Positions 595 through 8,650 of a stretch of DNA of 63,014 nt are shown piece after piece (position 1 is the stretch's first letter; the number at the start of each line of letters is the position of its first letter). Below the pieces are notes generated by a model. It was given only the letters and a program-made list of their open reading frames with translations, was not told the origin of the DNA and did no database searches. Made by a program: the position numbers and the translations under genes. Origin of the DNA: Halothiobacillaceae bacterium (GTDB lineage: Bacteria; Pseudomonadota; Gammaproteobacteria; Halothiobacillales; Halothiobacillaceae). The stretch lies in contig JAQVHL010000010.1 in NCBI GenBank assembly GCA_028696185.1, forward strand, positions 1 to 63,014, given 5' to 3'.

Positions 595-595
<1 letters not shown>
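296..595 (+). CDS. RelE/ParE family toxin
   Basis: A 99-residue protein with the compact RelE/ParE layout: an N-terminal strand (YQVRLAPAAAEDL), two helices with a hydrophobic face (LQRLFAFLAEHD, ARHAIERAF) and C-terminal strands ending in a VRHQRED segment typical of ParE toxins. It begins with TTG overlapping the antitoxin stop and ends in TGATG, whose ATG starts cas1. The sequence does not decide between mRNA cleavage (RelE) and gyrase poisoning (ParE); the LRE...YEIES...ILAVRHQRED pattern favours ParE. The coupling to an adaptation module is unusual. Confidence 0.8.
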
Positions 596-1795
<1,200 letters not shown>

Positions 1796-1844: not shown

Positions 1845-4008
1845 CCGTTCCCCGCACGCGCGGGGATGAACCGGATACCGCTCGACCAGCTACGACGATG
1901 GCGCGCCGTTCCCCGCACGCGCGGGGATGAACCGACCCAGGTGTTGATGTTGCCGATCACGTCATCCCGTTCCCCGCACGCGCGGGGATGAACCGTGCAG
2001 GTCACAGGTGTTGTGCCGCCGCCGAACCCGTTCCCCGCACGCGCGGGGATGAACCGCCGAACTGAGGGCACGGGCATGATCCGCGTAGCCGTTCCCCGCA
2101 CGCGCGGGGATGAACCGTCGAGACCGCGAACCCAAGACTCTACGGAGCCCCGTTCCCCGCACGCGCGGGGATGAACCATATCCAGAACAGGCGAGGTAGG
2201 GCTATGAGCCCCGTTCCCCGCACGCGCGGGGATGAACCGATGTCGGTGCTGCGGATCAGCTCGATCTTGCCCCGTTCCCCGCACGCGCGGGGATGAACCG
2301 GCGGCGCACAAGTAACAGGAAGGCCGCATGCACCGTTCCCCGCACGCGCGGGGATGAACCGTGAATATGAATATCTTATCAGCGATGAAAACACCGTTCC
2401 CCGCACGCGCGGGGATGAACCGCCATCGGTGGCTCGTCCAACCCGGTTGCTCGTCCGTTCCCCGCACGCGCGGGGATGAACCGGCCGAGCGTCCGAGTAT
2501 GTGGTGGCGCAAGGGCCGTTCCCCGCACGCGCGGGGATGAACCGTACCCGTGGAAGCGGGTCGGAAGCGCCGATGACCGTTCCCCGCACGCGCGGGGATG
2601 AACCGCCAAATTCGTGGGTGGAGAACCAGCCGCCGGACCGTTCCCCGCACGCGCGGGGATGAACCGCGCTCTCAGACGACCATCCGGTGGTCCGCGAGCC
2701 GTTCCCCGCACGCGCGGGGATGAACCGAAGATCGTCAATTTCCAGCTGGCCACCGCCACCCGTTCCCCGCACGCGCGGGGATGAACCGTCCATGACCGGG
2801 GGCGAACCGCTGCCGGCGCGCCGTTCCCCGCACGCGCGGGGATGAACCTTGTCTTCCATGTGGCGCGACAGTTCCAGGCACCCGTTCCCCGCACGCGCGG
2901 GGATGAACCCAAAGATTTTGGCGTAGGCTTCGAAGAATCGGCCCGTTCCCCGCACGCGCGGGGATGAACCGGTGACGCCACCAAAAATGAAGCCCTTGCG
3001 CATCCGTTCCCCGCACGCGCGGGGATGAACCGCTCCTTGATCCGGAAAACGACGAGGCGAACACCCGTTCCCCGCACGCGCGGGGATGAACCGACGCAAC
3101 CCTTGCTCAGGCGGGCATAGCCACTCCGTTCCCCGCACGCGCGGGGATGAACCGTGAAATCCCCCACCTGCCGGACGCGCAGACCGCCGTTCCCCGCACG
3201 CGCGGGGATGAACCGCGCGCCCGGATGAGCCCGGCCAGTTCCGCGCGCCGTTCCCCGCACGCGCGGGGATGAACCGAAAACCGTCACCGACGCCTGGTTC
3301 GCCTGCCCCCGTTCCCCGCACGCGCGGGGATGAACCCTGTGAGGCCCGCGTGTCCCGGCTGGAGGGCGTCCGTTCCCCGCACGCGCGGGGATGAACCGGT
3401 GGCCGCATGAACGTCTCCGCCGTCATCGCCCCGTTCCCCGCACGCGCGGGGATGAACCGAGGACAAGCTGATGCACCTGGCGGGAGTTGCCCCGTTCCCC
3501 GCACGCGCGGGGATGAACCGGTGTTGGTCGACGTTGCTCATGCCAGCACCTCCCGTTCCCCGCACGCGCGGGGATGAACCGGTTCATAGCGATTCCGGTA
3601 AATGGAGAAAAACCCGTTCCCCGCACGCGCGGGGATGAACCGGCCGGGAACGGCTCGGGCGCATGGGTGAAAGCCCGTTCCCCGCACGCGCGGGGATGAA
3701 CCGCTGTCGCCGATCAGGCCGATTTCCTTGGCCGCCCGTTCCCCGCACGCGCGGGGATGAACCGGCGATTGACAGCGTGGGGGGGATGTCGGCGCTCCGT
3801 TCCCCGCACGCGCGGGGATGAACCGGAATGGGCACGAGCATGAGAATCTGCTGGAGCCCGTTCCCCGCACGCGCGGGGATGAACCGTCCGCATGACCATC
3901 GACACCGCCCGCTTTCAGCCGTTCCCCGCACGCGCGGGGATGAACCGCGGGGGGGCAGATTGTCCCCGGCCTCGTCAAGCCGTTCCCCGCACGCGCGGGG
4001 ATGAACCC
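1845..4008 (+). CRISPR. Type I-E CRISPR array, block 1 (36 repeats, 35 spacers)
   Basis: Thirty-six copies of a 29-bp repeat (CCGTTCCCC...GGGGATGAACCG, with an inner GCACGCGC) at an exact 61-bp period, so every spacer is 32 bp. The repeats are invariant except for the last base. Repeats starting at 2150, 2821, 2882, 3309 and 3980 end in A, T, C, C and C instead of G. In type I-E the last repeat base comes from the PAM, so these mark atypical acquisitions. The block lies next to leader and cas2 and should hold the newest spacers. Confidence 0.99.
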
Positions 4009-4422
4009 GGAGATTGGCAAATGAAGGTGTGGGCGTTGACTGCGAGGGACATTCAGCTATTCTCATTGAACAGCGAGCCAGAGATGATCATTCAGCGTGG
4101 CGTGCAGCTTCGCCAAACAGGCTTCAGGTCTGGCTATCGTGATGTTATCGAAGAGGAGGGCGTTGACGTGAAAAAGAACCGGCAATTCAGCGCGCCGAGA
4201 GATACCGTGCGCACTCCTGAAGAAGAGCAGGCATTGCTTGAACACATGGCAAAGCATGGATATGGCACGATTGAACATGCTCGCCATGTCCTCGCCATGA
4301 TGGCAGAGGCCGGACCACGAGCCCGCGCCAAGCAGGACGAGTTCGACCGCAACGCCACGCCTGAGCAGAAAGCACGCGCCAAGGCGTTTCTTGATCGCTG
4401 CATGTTGTCTCTGACCGCCTGA
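4009..4422 (+). pseudogene. Phage head-cluster ADP-ribosyltransferase-like protein, 5'-truncated by the array
   Basis: An open frame entering from the repeat boundary and ending at TGA 4420-4422. It encodes the C-terminal about 137 residues: GDWQ, ALTARDIQLFSLNSEPEMII (the E-x-E strand of R-S-E ADP-ribosyltransferases) and a tail ending in KAFLDRCMLSLTA. It is clearly homologous to the reverse-strand gene in insert 2, which holds the missing N-terminal half. The ATG at 4021 is probably internal. In the intact phage the protein would be a head-associated or injected ART; here it is cut off. Confidence 0.65.
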
Positions 4423-4446
4423 CCGCATAACTTGCACGATCATCAA

Positions 4447-4470
4447 GCCCGGCCACGCGCCGGGTTTTTT
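4447..4470 (+). terminator. Phage intrinsic terminator after the ART-like gene
   Basis: Stem CCCGGC/GCCGGG (4448-4453 with 4459-4464) with a 5-nt loop, followed by six T. A matching hairpin sits at the same place in insert 2, so it belongs to the phage, between the ART-like gene and the protease gene. Confidence 0.8.
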
Positions 4471-4549
4471 CATGCGCCTGTCTCGCTTGCTGCGTGACCG
4501 GACACCTGCCCGCTTCGCCCCATGATCCACTCGCGTAACGATGCGCGGC

Positions 4550-5263
4550 ATGGACAAGAAAACCGCTCCGACACCGCCCGTCCTGACCTTCGCCGCCGCC
4601 ATCGCCCCGGCCACGCAGGATCAGCCGCGCCGCTTCACCGGCACCGCCTATTCGGGCGAGGTCATCCCCAACCACTGGGCATGGGGCGATGTGGTCTTTG
4701 ACCTCGCCTCCATGATCCTGCCCGACAAGGCTCCCGTCCTGATCGAGCACGACCGTCATCAGCGCGCGGGCGTGATCGATGCCTTCACCGTCTCCGACGA
4801 GTCCGGCCTGACCGTCTCGGGTTACCTGATGGACAACGAGGCGGGACGCGCCGTGGCGACCGAGGCCGATGCCGGGTTTCCGTGGCAAATGTCCGTCCAC
4901 ATCGAACCGGCGCGCATCGACCAGGCCAACGGCGCCAACATCAATGGCCGCGTCTTCGATGGCCCGACCACCGTATTCGTGGGCGGCTCCATTCGTGAAG
5001 TTTCGTTTACCCCGACCGGGGCGGACAAGTACACCGCCGCCCAGGTGTTCACCCACCAACCCGCTCCGATTGAGGATCACGCCATGACCGTTGAAGAGCT
5101 GCAGGCGCAGGTCGAAACCCTGCAAGCCGAAAACGCCGACCTGAAGGCCGCCTTCGCCGCCCGAGTGCTTGATGAGCGTGCCGAGAAATTCGCCGCCGCC
5201 ATGGGCGAGGCCCCGACCGACGAGGAAAAGTCGGCGATTGCGGGCATGACCGAGGCGCAATTC
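4550..5263 (+). pseudogene. Mu gpI-like phage prohead protease/scaffold, 3'-truncated by the array
   Basis: 238 residues of a Mu gpI-type protease: VLTFAAAIAPATQDQPRRF, the LIEHDRH strand, QMSVHIEPARI and the VGGSIREVSFTPTGAD motif common to phage prohead proteases. A coiled-coil scaffold-like segment follows from about residue 178 (MTVEELQAQVETLQAENADL). An internal ATG at 5083, after GAGGAT, may start a separate scaffold protein, as gene Z does inside Mu gene I. ATG 4550 was chosen by alignment with the homologous start in insert 2. The frame runs out at the repeat at 5264, so the C terminus is missing. Confidence 0.75.
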
Positions 5264-6757
5264 CCGTTCCCCGCACGCGCGGGGATGAACCGTCGTCCGC
5301 GATACGGCCGGGCTGCGGGGCCGTCCGTTCCCCGCACGCGCGGGGATGAACCGACACAGGCGCTGGCCTTCCGCGCTGTGCATCTCCGTTCCCCGCACGC
5401 GCGGGGATGAACCGGTCAAGGGCTTCAGGGTGACGAGCGATGTGACCCGTTCCCCGCACGCGCGGGGATGAACCGACCCTGACCGGCTGGTGGGGTACGA
5501 GGTGGGGCCGTTCCCCGCACGCGCGGGGATGAACCGCGGAAGCCCTCTGGCGTGGTGCCCACGGCCATCCGTTCCCCGCACGCGCGGGGATGAACCGGGC
5601 AGCGCGTCCAATAGCGCCTGCCGCCATTCCCGTTCCCCGCACGCGCGGGGATGAACCGGGCAAGCTGGACGAGCGGCAGAACTGGGAGGCCCGTTCCCCG
5701 CACGCGCGGGGATGAACCGGACCCGCGAACCGGTACGCACTCCACCATATGCCGTTCCCCGCACGCGCGGGGATGAACCGCCAGATCAACGCCGACCATC
5801 GCATCGAGATGACCGTTCCCCGCACGCGCGGGGATGAACCGTCATGGCGTCGGCATACTTGTCCAGCACGTCGCCGTTCCCCGCACGCGCGGGGATGAAC
5901 CGCCTGATTACTTGGAGATGGCGTTTGACCTTGTCCGTTCCCCGCACGCGCGGGGATGAACCGACGGGGAGGCCGTTGATCCGGCCTGTCCTGCCCCGTT
6001 CCCCGCACGCGCGGGGATGAACCGTTCTCGTAGGGCTTCAGGTCATCCAGCGTCCACCGTTCCCCGCACGCGCGGGGATGAACCGACATGGAGGAGAAGG
6101 ACGCCCACCTCTACGCCCCGTTCCCCGCACGCGCGGGGATGAACCGTCGGTGCCGAAATCGACACTTACCTTGCAGGGCCGTTCCCCGCACGCGCGGGGA
6201 TGAACCGCTGTTGCCGTCGCGCGTGGGCGGCCTGTTCATCCGTTCCCCGCACGCGCGGGGATGAACCGGCTGATGCCGCCCTCGCCTCTTTTTTGTCGTC
6301 CCGTTCCCCGCACGCGCGGGGATGAACCGGGTTACCAGTACCTGTCCGCCGAGTTCCACGACCGTTCCCCGCACGCGCGGGGATGAACCGGACTTTGTCG
6401 ATACGGCGGCCAAGTTCGAGAGCCCGTTCCCCGCACGCGCGGGGATGAACCGCCGTAGCCGACGTTGCAGCGCATGTCCACGCCCCGTTCCCCGCACGCG
6501 CGGGGATGAACCGGAATTCCAGGGCGCTTATGACGCCGCGCGCGCCCGTTCCCCGCACGCGCGGGGATGAACCGGCGCCAGAGCTGTAGTAGCTCTGCGA
6601 GCCGATCCGTTCCCCGCACGCGCGGGGATGAACCGCGTCTCAGCCACCGCGCCGGGGGCGATTGCGCCCGTTCCCCGCACGCGCGGGGATGAACCGCGGG
6701 ACTTCATGTAATCGGTCAGCGGCATACCCCGTTCCCCGCACGCGCGGGGATGAACCG
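5264..6757 (+). CRISPR. Type I-E CRISPR array, block 2 (25 repeats, 24 spacers)
   Basis: Twenty-five repeats identical to block 1, all ending in G, which implies AAG-type PAM choice throughout. The period is 61 bp except for one 33-nt spacer at 6391-6423. Orientation is the same as block 1. The block is bounded on both sides by phage inserts rather than by leader or trailer DNA. Confidence 0.99.
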
Positions 6758-6840
6758 CGGCGCGGCTGATCCTGCGTGGCCGGGGCGATGGCGGCGGCGA
6801 AGGTCAGGACAGGCGGCGTGCGGTCGGTTTTTACGTTCAT
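6758..6840 (-). pseudogene. Mu gpI-like protease, N-terminal fragment (second phage variant)
   Basis: The first 27 codons of a gpI-like protease, starting MNVKTDRTPPVLTF and continuing AAAIAPATQDQPRR, where the array cuts in. The residues after position 8 are identical to the protein in insert 1, while the first residues differ (MNVKTD versus MDKKTA). The two inserts thus come from two closely related phages or strains. Confidence 0.7.
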
Positions 6841-6924
6841 GCGCGCATGATGGTGGCGCATGCCACCGCAGAGAAGCGGGCAGGTGTCCGTTCAGGGATG
6901 GACGGTGGCGCGGTGGCGCGCATG

Positions 6925-6949
6925 AAAAAGCCCGGCGCTTGGCCGGGCT
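6925..6949 (-). terminator. Phage intrinsic terminator (insert 2)
   Basis: Stem AGCCCGGC/GCCGGGCT with a 5-nt loop, followed on the minus strand by five T. It is the counterpart of the hairpin at 4447-4470 and lies between the ART-like gene and the protease gene. Confidence 0.8.
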
Positions 6950-6970
6950 GTTGTGCGCGATGGCGCGTTG

Positions 6971-7603
6971 TCAGGCGAGATACTGGAGCATGCAGCGATC
7001 AAGAAACGCCTTGGCACGGGCTTTCTGCTCGGGTGTGGCGCTGCGGTCAAACTCGTCCTGCTTGGCGCGGGCAATTTTCGCCATTTCGCGCCCTTTCTTG
7101 ATCATATCCAAGGCGAACTCCACGCTTGGCCAACCATGCGCGGCCATATATTCAGCACGCTTGAGCAAGTCTTCGTCGGTATACGCCTCGGGCGGCAAAG
7201 ACTCCATCTTGAGCTTGTCATCATCTGTGAATTGTCTTGCCTTTTTCACATCAACCCCATCAACTTCAGTGAAGTCTCGGTATCCGGATTCAAACCTTTC
7301 CGCCTTCATCTTGGCACGTCTTGGAAGGATAACTTCAGGTTCGCCGTTTAGTGAGAATAGCTCCAAATCACGCGCTGTCAATGCGAGTAATTGCATCTGC
7401 CAATCTCCGCCATATTGCAAGCCTTCCACCTTGGAGAGCGAGGTATAGCCGCTTTGCTGCGTGACGCGACCAGTGCGGTGCGCATCTAGCCAGCGCGCCT
7501 GTAATGGCTCGGGCATGGCCTGTGTATCCACGCCGCGCCAGTAGATGCCAGGCATGGCGGGCAGCGCCTCCAGCGCGGCATCCAAGGCCATGACCAGCGG
7601 CAT
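6971..7603 (-). pseudogene. Phage head-cluster ADP-ribosyltransferase-like protein (insert 2 variant, edge at repeat)
   Basis: A 211-residue open frame with an R-S-E-type ADP-ribosyltransferase arrangement: IYWRGVD (Arg) near residue 22, GYTSLSK (Ser-Thr-Ser-like) near 52, and LFSLNGEPEVILPRR (E-x-E) near 85. The rest is helical and ends in a conserved tail (RAKAFLDRCMLQYLA). In Mu-like phages such domains are attached to or encoded next to minor head proteins. The frame begins exactly at the repeat boundary, so the ATG at 7603 may be internal and the true N terminus lost. ART function is inferred from motifs only. Confidence 0.6.
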
Positions 7604-8060
7604 CCGTTCCCCGCACGCGCGGGGATGAACCGGGTTGCAACCTACGGCAACAAGTGCGGCAAGCCCGTTCCCCGCACGCGCGGGGATGAACCGCTGCTTG
7701 TAATGGGTATCCAGAACCAGCGTGGCCGTTCCCCGCACGCGCGGGGATGAACCGCACCGTGTTGTGGATGAAATACCCTGTCTCATGCCGTTCCCCGCAC
7801 GCGCGGGGATGAACCGGGGTTCAGATGAGTGAATTGGCGGGCAACGCGCCGTTCCCCGCACGCGCGGGGATGAACCGCGTCCAGACATATCACCGACAGT
7901 ACAGCAGTTCCGTTCCCCGCACGCGCGGGGATGAACCGTTGGTCGTTGACGCGGGAAAAATCCTCTGCTGCCGTTCCCCGCACGCGCGGGGATGAACCGC
8001 AAAAGGAGATGTTGGGTCAACTACATCAACACCGTTCCCCGCACGCGCGGGGATGAACCG
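7604..8060 (+). CRISPR. Type I-E CRISPR array, block 3 (8 repeats, 7 spacers)
   Basis: Eight repeats identical to the other blocks, all ending in G. Six spacers are 32 bp and one, 7755-7787, is 33 bp. Both sides are bounded by phage inserts. Confidence 0.99.
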
Positions 8061-8062
8061 GC

Positions 8063-8398
8063 ATTGCCAAGGTCGAGAGCGAACTATACGACTGGGCGCT
8101 CGATCGGTACGCGCCGATTCATATCCGCAACGAGGACGGCGACGCCGCTGCCGAGGCGCGGCGCGGCCAGATCGCGGTTGCGGCTGATGATTACCGTCAT
8201 CTGCCACGCATCATTGATGCGCCGGACAGGATGGAGGATGCGGGAGTGACCGACACCGGTCGCCGGGCCGTGGAACTGGTCAAGGAAATCGATGGCGTGT
8301 CCTACCACGCTGTCTTCGAGGTGCTGACCAAGCGCCGCATGCTGGCGCTCAAGACCCCGTACAAGAAAGCGGGGCGTCCCCCCGTCCTACGTCCGTGA
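8063..8398 (+). pseudogene. Mu gpF-like/phage nuclease-domain protein, C-terminal fragment
   Basis: An open frame entering from the repeat and ending at TGA 8396-8398, about 111 residues. The C-terminal strands (ELVKEIDGVSYHAVFEVLTK, then a basic KTPYKKAGRPP end) resemble the barnase/EndoU/colicin-like nuclease domains at the C terminus of some phage minor head proteins. The assignment is a motif impression plus its place before gpG; an unrelated head protein tail is possible. Confidence 0.5.
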
Positions 8399-8456
8399 CG
8401 CTTCGCGGTATGAGCGCGACGACGGGATGCAACCGCCCCAAAAAGGACTCTAGCAC

Positions 8457-8560
8457 ATGATCCACATCGAGATCGACGACCTCGCTGTGCGCCAGGCGCT
8501 GGCGGAGCTTGGGCGCCGCGTGGGCGACCTCACGCCCGCCCTGCACGACATCGGTCAGGC
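8457..8560 (+). pseudogene. Phage virion morphogenesis protein (Mu gpG-like), N-terminal fragment
   Basis: Thirty-four codons starting MIHIEIDDLAVRQALAELG, the typical opening of gpG-family virion morphogenesis proteins. An AAAAGGA Shine-Dalgarno lies upstream. The frame is cut by the repeat at 8561. Confidence 0.6.
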
Positions 8561-8650
8561 CCGTTCCCCGCACGCGCGGGGATGAACCTGCGCAAGGTTC
8601 GCCGTTGGCTACGTCGCGGCCCCGTTCCCCGCACGCGCGGGGATGAACCT
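8561..8650 (+). CRISPR. Type I-E CRISPR array, terminal block 4 (2 repeats, 1 spacer)
   Basis: Two repeats at 8561 and 8622 with one 32-bp spacer (8590-8621). Both end in T rather than G, like a few repeats in block 1. The last repeat is otherwise perfect, which is unusual for a leader-distal end, where repeats often degenerate. Ordinary chromosomal sequence follows. Confidence 0.97.

Follow-up and report, generated by a model that had tools for sequence, protein, structure and literature searches.

Three oversized phage segments at exact repeat boundaries in a type I-E CRISPR array, tentatively read as giant spacers

The window analysed here, a complete contig of 63,014 bp (C104) from a genome of 2.92 Mb in 112 contigs, carries a type I-E CRISPR array in which three of the intervals between repeats are occupied by phage-derived inserts of 1255, 846 and 500 bp, 15 to 40 times longer than the normal 32-base spacer. 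We prefer, at a little under an even chance, the hypothesis that the three segments are real giant spacers, integrated at three times by the Cas1-Cas2 adaptation machinery; it is favoured because of the exact repeat boundaries, the phage identity of the inserts, their three sources and an assembly k that is too long for joins through a spacer. Taking all real mechanisms together, we consider it fairly likely that the inserts, which are known here from assembled sequence, physically exist. The features to which we refer, in window coordinates, are the following.

595..1515, forward strand: cas1, the type I-E integrase (Pfam Cas_Cas1, E 6.4e-14)
1493..1795, forward strand: cas2 of the CT1978 type, I-E (Pfam Cas_Cas2CT1978, E 7.9e-37)
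1845..8649, forward strand: type I-E CRISPR array with 71 identical repeats, 68 normal spacers and 3 giant intervals; leader side most likely left
2850..2881, forward strand: spacer s16, preceded by an atypical repeat-terminal T that equals the phage base (PAM CGT) in phages L007 and L057
2972..3003, forward strand: spacer s18, which matches L007 and L057 next to an AAG
4009..5263, forward strand: insert 1 (1255 bp), with the last 137 codons of an F-like head protein, a terminator-like hairpin and the first 240 codons of a head-maturation protease
4633..4635, reverse strand: AAG (CTT on the forward strand) in insert 1, homologous by alignment to the position at the left boundary of insert 2
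5228..5230, forward strand: AAG before the last 33 bp of insert 1, read directly in the sequence
6697..6728, forward strand: spacer directly left of insert 2, which matches phage L057 with 7 mismatches
6758..7603, reverse strand: insert 2 (846 bp), with the last 210 codons of an F-like protein (6971-7603) and then the start of a protease (about 6758-6841)
8061..8560, forward strand: insert 3 (500 bp), with the PBECR3 domain that ends an F-like protein (8060-8398) and then the first 34 codons of a gpG-like gene (8457-8560)

The system belongs to type I-E, having cas1, cas2, repeats of about 29 bp with 32-bp spacers and, in the same genome, cse1 (Cas8e; PF09481, E 1.8e-99, C68:92596-93957). Its cas1 is 95% and 93% identical to the cas1 genes that adjoin arrays in two related genomes. 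The repeat, CGTTCCCCGCACGCGCGGGGATGAACC, is present in 71 exact copies, and 65 of the 68 ordinary spacers measure 32 bp; the other three measure 33 bp, so that the "perfect 61-bp" array described in an earlier sequence-only reading was nearly right. The 3' end of contig C68 overlaps the start of the window by 127 bp and the remainder of the cas operon lies on C68; this makes the left side of the array the most likely place of the leader, so that insert 1 would be the youngest and insert 3 the oldest. Directly upstream of cas1, at 12-595, we observed a parDE-like toxin-antitoxin pair (ParE_toxin, E 8.9e-16) whose stop overlaps the cas1 start. A pair that is 69-74% identical also precedes cas1 in the related genome G002 (L042), and no match to it was found beside cas1 in the related genome G007 (L041). 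An exact 21-mer of the ordinary spacer s44 (5780-5813) recurs in the terminal region of contig C63 in the same genome (L177:18636-18656) and may be a partial self match.

Counting the repeat-terminal base and the initial C of the next repeat, the exceptional intervals run from 4008 to 5264, 6757 to 7604 and 8060 to 8561; without those two bases they have the lengths given above. All six insert ends sit exactly at intact repeats, in agreement with the earlier reading. The inserts thus resemble spacers in being flanked by intact repeats on both sides and differ from them in exceeding 32-33 bp. The head-maturation protease of insert 1 matches phrog_3244 (E 2.8e-32). The alignment of inserts 1 and 2 starts at the first base of insert 1 and extends to the boundary on the left of insert 2; within it BLAST reports a stretch of 316 bp with 78% DNA identity and one of 85 bp with 71%, and a perfect match of 53-54 bp between the two ends exactly at that boundary. 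Of the F C-terminal region present in insert 2, a large part is missing from insert 1. In insert 3 the PBECR3 domain (E 5.7e-14) gives the F protein a C-terminus different from those in inserts 1 and 2, and the gene that comes next is gpG-like. Each of the three inserts spans the end, with the stop codon, of an F-like minor head gene, for which we calculate a p of about 0.0016 with random pieces of a 37-kb phage; this is unlikely under random capture, and capture does not explain it. Neither the inserts nor the phage contig C27 showed repeats, inverted ends or an integrase.

Contig C27, from the same assembly, is 92% identical to insert 3 over 501 bp (G000:C27:2216-2716) and encodes Portal_Mu, Phage_Mu_F, virion morphogenesis, Phage_tail_S, I protease and gpT proteins. 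Its gene order, with a Mu-type portal, F, gpG, I protease and gpT, points to a Mu-like origin for insert 3, and homology of the F-like and protease genes points to the same origin for inserts 1 and 2. The previous assignment of all three to one Mu-like head-gene neighbourhood thus holds for the phage content and the F gene end, but the sequences indicate three different Mu-like source phages. In their own genome inserts 1 and 2 have no match outside the array, and insert 3 has only its 92% relative. Nothing close to insert 1 was found by BLAST among 50,697 phage records, its best relative being 70% identical at the protein level in a cave MAG, and searches of IMG/VR with exact patterns from all three inserts and with proteins returned no close source. 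Phage sequence flanking the inserts was not found in the assembly or in IMG/VR. As an observation on the contig itself, C27 (L056:1-11404) is an 11.4-kb piece of a Mu-like phage or prophage, its ends cut within the portal and tape-measure genes, with a PBECR3 nuclease-like domain at the end of its F protein. The E. coli Chi sequence GCTGGTGG occurs at L056:2715-2730, right after the base that corresponds to the right-hand boundary of insert 3; we rejected this Chi-like sequence past exit 3 as a signal, for it probably reflects codon bias.

None of the 68 ordinary spacers matches inside the inserts. They do match the same phage family, within the same few kilobases, which are also the only kilobases open to matching. 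The phage L057, matched by the spacer directly left of insert 2, is the closest relative of insert 1, and the match lies on the same strand about 700 bp from the insert 2 boundary. Spacers s13, s16 and s18 (2667-3003) match L057-type phages at positions spread over about 900 bp of L057, a pattern that fits, as expected, an acquisition burst from one phage family.

In type I-E systems the terminal base of the repeat is taken from the phage. Here that base is G before 62 of 68 ordinary spacers, AAG adjoins the phage matches of s18, s49 and s55, and the repeat T before s16 equals the phage base in CGT; the sequence comparison therefore indicates that the terminal base is copied from the phage. 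At the left ends of the inserts (the entries) the corresponding motifs would be GGC for insert 1, as deduced from insert 2, AAG for insert 2, from insert 1, and TCG for insert 3, from C27. At the exits, AAG is found for insert 1 at 33 nt only, TCC for insert 2 and GAC for insert 3, the latter two lacking AAG at both 32 and 33 nt. The individual bases reported earlier are all present, namely the AAG at 5228-5230, the CTT at 4633-4635 and the atypical C that ends the repeat before insert 1, which equals the phage base, insert 2 having on its reverse strand a C before GGAGATTGG. Of the ends that the earlier reading took for spacer-protospacer junctions, the two that adjoin a PAM are confirmed. 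Altogether AAG is seen at two of six insert ends, one entry and one exit. Were the exits genuine spacers, whether in the computer or in the cell, nearly all should show AAG; since they do not, their AAG frequency looks like chance. The likelihood ratio against spacer-mediated exits is about 25 if 88% of spacers have AAG, and 2 to 10 if 40-80% do. A variant in which the giant spacers were flipped was rejected, CTT not following exits 1 and 3 in the relatives.

These exits bear on both explanations that proceed through spacers, since a chimera and a recombinant alike call for AAG 32-33 bp before every exit, and we find it before one of three. The chimera, formed through shared k-mers, had been put forward as the simplest explanation: the true array would read repeat-E-repeat-X-repeat, where E and X are two spacers that derive from one phage, and the assembler would have entered the phage at E and left it at X through the approximately 33 bp common to spacer and protospacer. 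The genome is probably a short-read MAG, its smallest contig of 2525 bp suggesting a 2.5-kb cut-off and hence a metagenome bin, and chimeras are a general hazard in such MAGs. (The absence of 16S was dropped as proof of a MAG, four contigs being fully masked with N.) An AAG does precede exit 1 and, in the homologous insert 1, entry 2; ordinary spacers match the same phage family, and chimeric contigs at CRISPR arrays have been described (PMC6617893). However, the explanation fits this assembly poorly. An overlap of exactly 127 bp is found at 22 pairs of contig ends, the window start with C68 among them. Such overlaps are the mark of a de Bruijn graph with a final k of 127, and the final graph therefore used k=127, in which a common spacer of 33 bp, about the most that array and phage share, could not join the two. 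At that k a join requires either 128-base reads containing the junction or a chimeric contig inherited from one of the first rounds, with small k; such an error might be carried over from there or brought in by a reassembly of the bin with untrusted contigs. In a simplified multi-k simulation with contig carry-over (k=33-127, array coverage 8-40, phage coverage 3-80; not the real assembler), no chimeric junction arose in 576 opportunities, and every run assembled the true junction. A chimera would also require four genuine graph branches to be dropped at each of three sites in an otherwise perfect array, and the source phages were not found in the assembly. We regard it as unlikely, although it keeps appreciable weight, because no precedent for kilobase spacers was found in the literature searched.

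In the cell, a break between neighbouring spacers E and X of one phage might have been repaired by copying the phage from E to X, with replacement of the intervening repeat. Such recombination predicts exact repeat boundaries, which are observed, and AAG at both ends, and the neighbour of insert 2 on its left, a spacer that matches this phage family on the same strand, shows that adjacent spacers from one phage occur. We nevertheless judge it improbable: with AAG missing from four of six ends the exits are unlike spacers, two crossovers within 32 bp of homology would be demanded three times over, and the common rearrangement of arrays is simple repeat-repeat deletion (PMC8047081). The recurrence of the F stop codon in three inserts from three phages speaks for some other process, such as a phage-borne repeat unit or an element that delivers the F gene end into repeats; we give this only a slim chance, as neither inserts nor C27 show the repeats, inverted ends or integrase, and the absence from insert 1 of much of the F C-terminal region makes a conserved functional cassette unlikely. 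A toxin-like cassette under selection was dropped on the same ground. Giant-spacer capture, one of the alternatives in the earlier reading, is the hypothesis that fits better than the chimera. Against it stands the single AAG among three entry ends, compared with the terminal G before nearly all normal spacers. Among about 450 spacer intervals in 21 related arrays we found no giant spacer, so that systems of this kind do not generally have them; what looked like long gaps in three of the related arrays turned out to be degenerate repeats or a leader lookalike.

Under the capture hypothesis, long linear fragments of infecting Mu-like phages would have been integrated at the leader-side repeat in place of normal 33-bp prespacers, by the type I-E Cas1-Cas2 and with the usual repeat duplication, in three separate events, the inserts being later buried by ordinary spacers. 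The fragments may have been wrongly measured or trimmed, for example through two Cas1-Cas2 complexes each gripping one end, in a manner analogous to a casposase, and entry ends without AAG would fit mis-positioned capture. According to a type I-F study, Cas1-Cas2 acts as a ruler for spacer length, which speaks against capture, and PAM errors correlate with spacers of aberrant length, which speaks for it (PMC5059440). A casposase joins two separate DNA ends, and Cas2 binding is thought to have converted this activity to the insertion of a single short piece (PMC6977970). Should that restriction fail in nature, inserts like those observed would result. It is conceivable, though somewhat short of an even chance, that the I-E machinery, in repeatedly integrating phage fragments of 0.5-1.3 kb, displays a residual casposon-like activity of Cas1-Cas2 on long DNA. 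The giant spacers would probably give no normal crRNA.

CRISPR adaptation has been proposed to descend from casposon-type integration of long DNA. If the inserts are real, this descent becomes directly testable with a natural Cas1-Cas2 pair, the 33-bp ruler can fail more than 10-fold in nature, and the oversized products persist through dozens of later acquisitions. If they are an artefact, phage genes can end up spliced into arrays even in assemblies with k=127, a concern for catalogues of spacers and for the prediction of hosts.

The short-read chimeras described at CRISPR arrays share with our case a repetitive array and a probable metagenome origin (PMC6617893); here, in contrast, the shared stretch is shorter than k=127, and it is non-repeat phage DNA that is joined, precisely at the edges of repeats. 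Ordinary type I-E adaptation has in common with the array the I-E repeat, cas1-cas2 beside it, spacers of 32-33 bp, the AAG PAM beside several phage-matching spacers and the phage-derived terminal repeat base, but three of the pieces here are 500-1255 bp long where 33 bp would be normal, and AAG is missing from the majority of their ends. The aberrant-length spacers of type I-F likewise combine a non-canonical PAM with a non-canonical length; there the deviations arise when the acquisition complex slips at the PAM, and the passages cited report none of hundreds of bases (PMC5059440). With casposons and their casposase (PMC6977970) the case would share a Cas1-type integrase that joins both ends of a long DNA molecule to a target, and the duplication of that target. 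The inserts, encoding only F, protease and gpG fragments, are not casposons, for they have no terminal inverted repeats, casposase or polB, and the resemblance is one of mechanism only.
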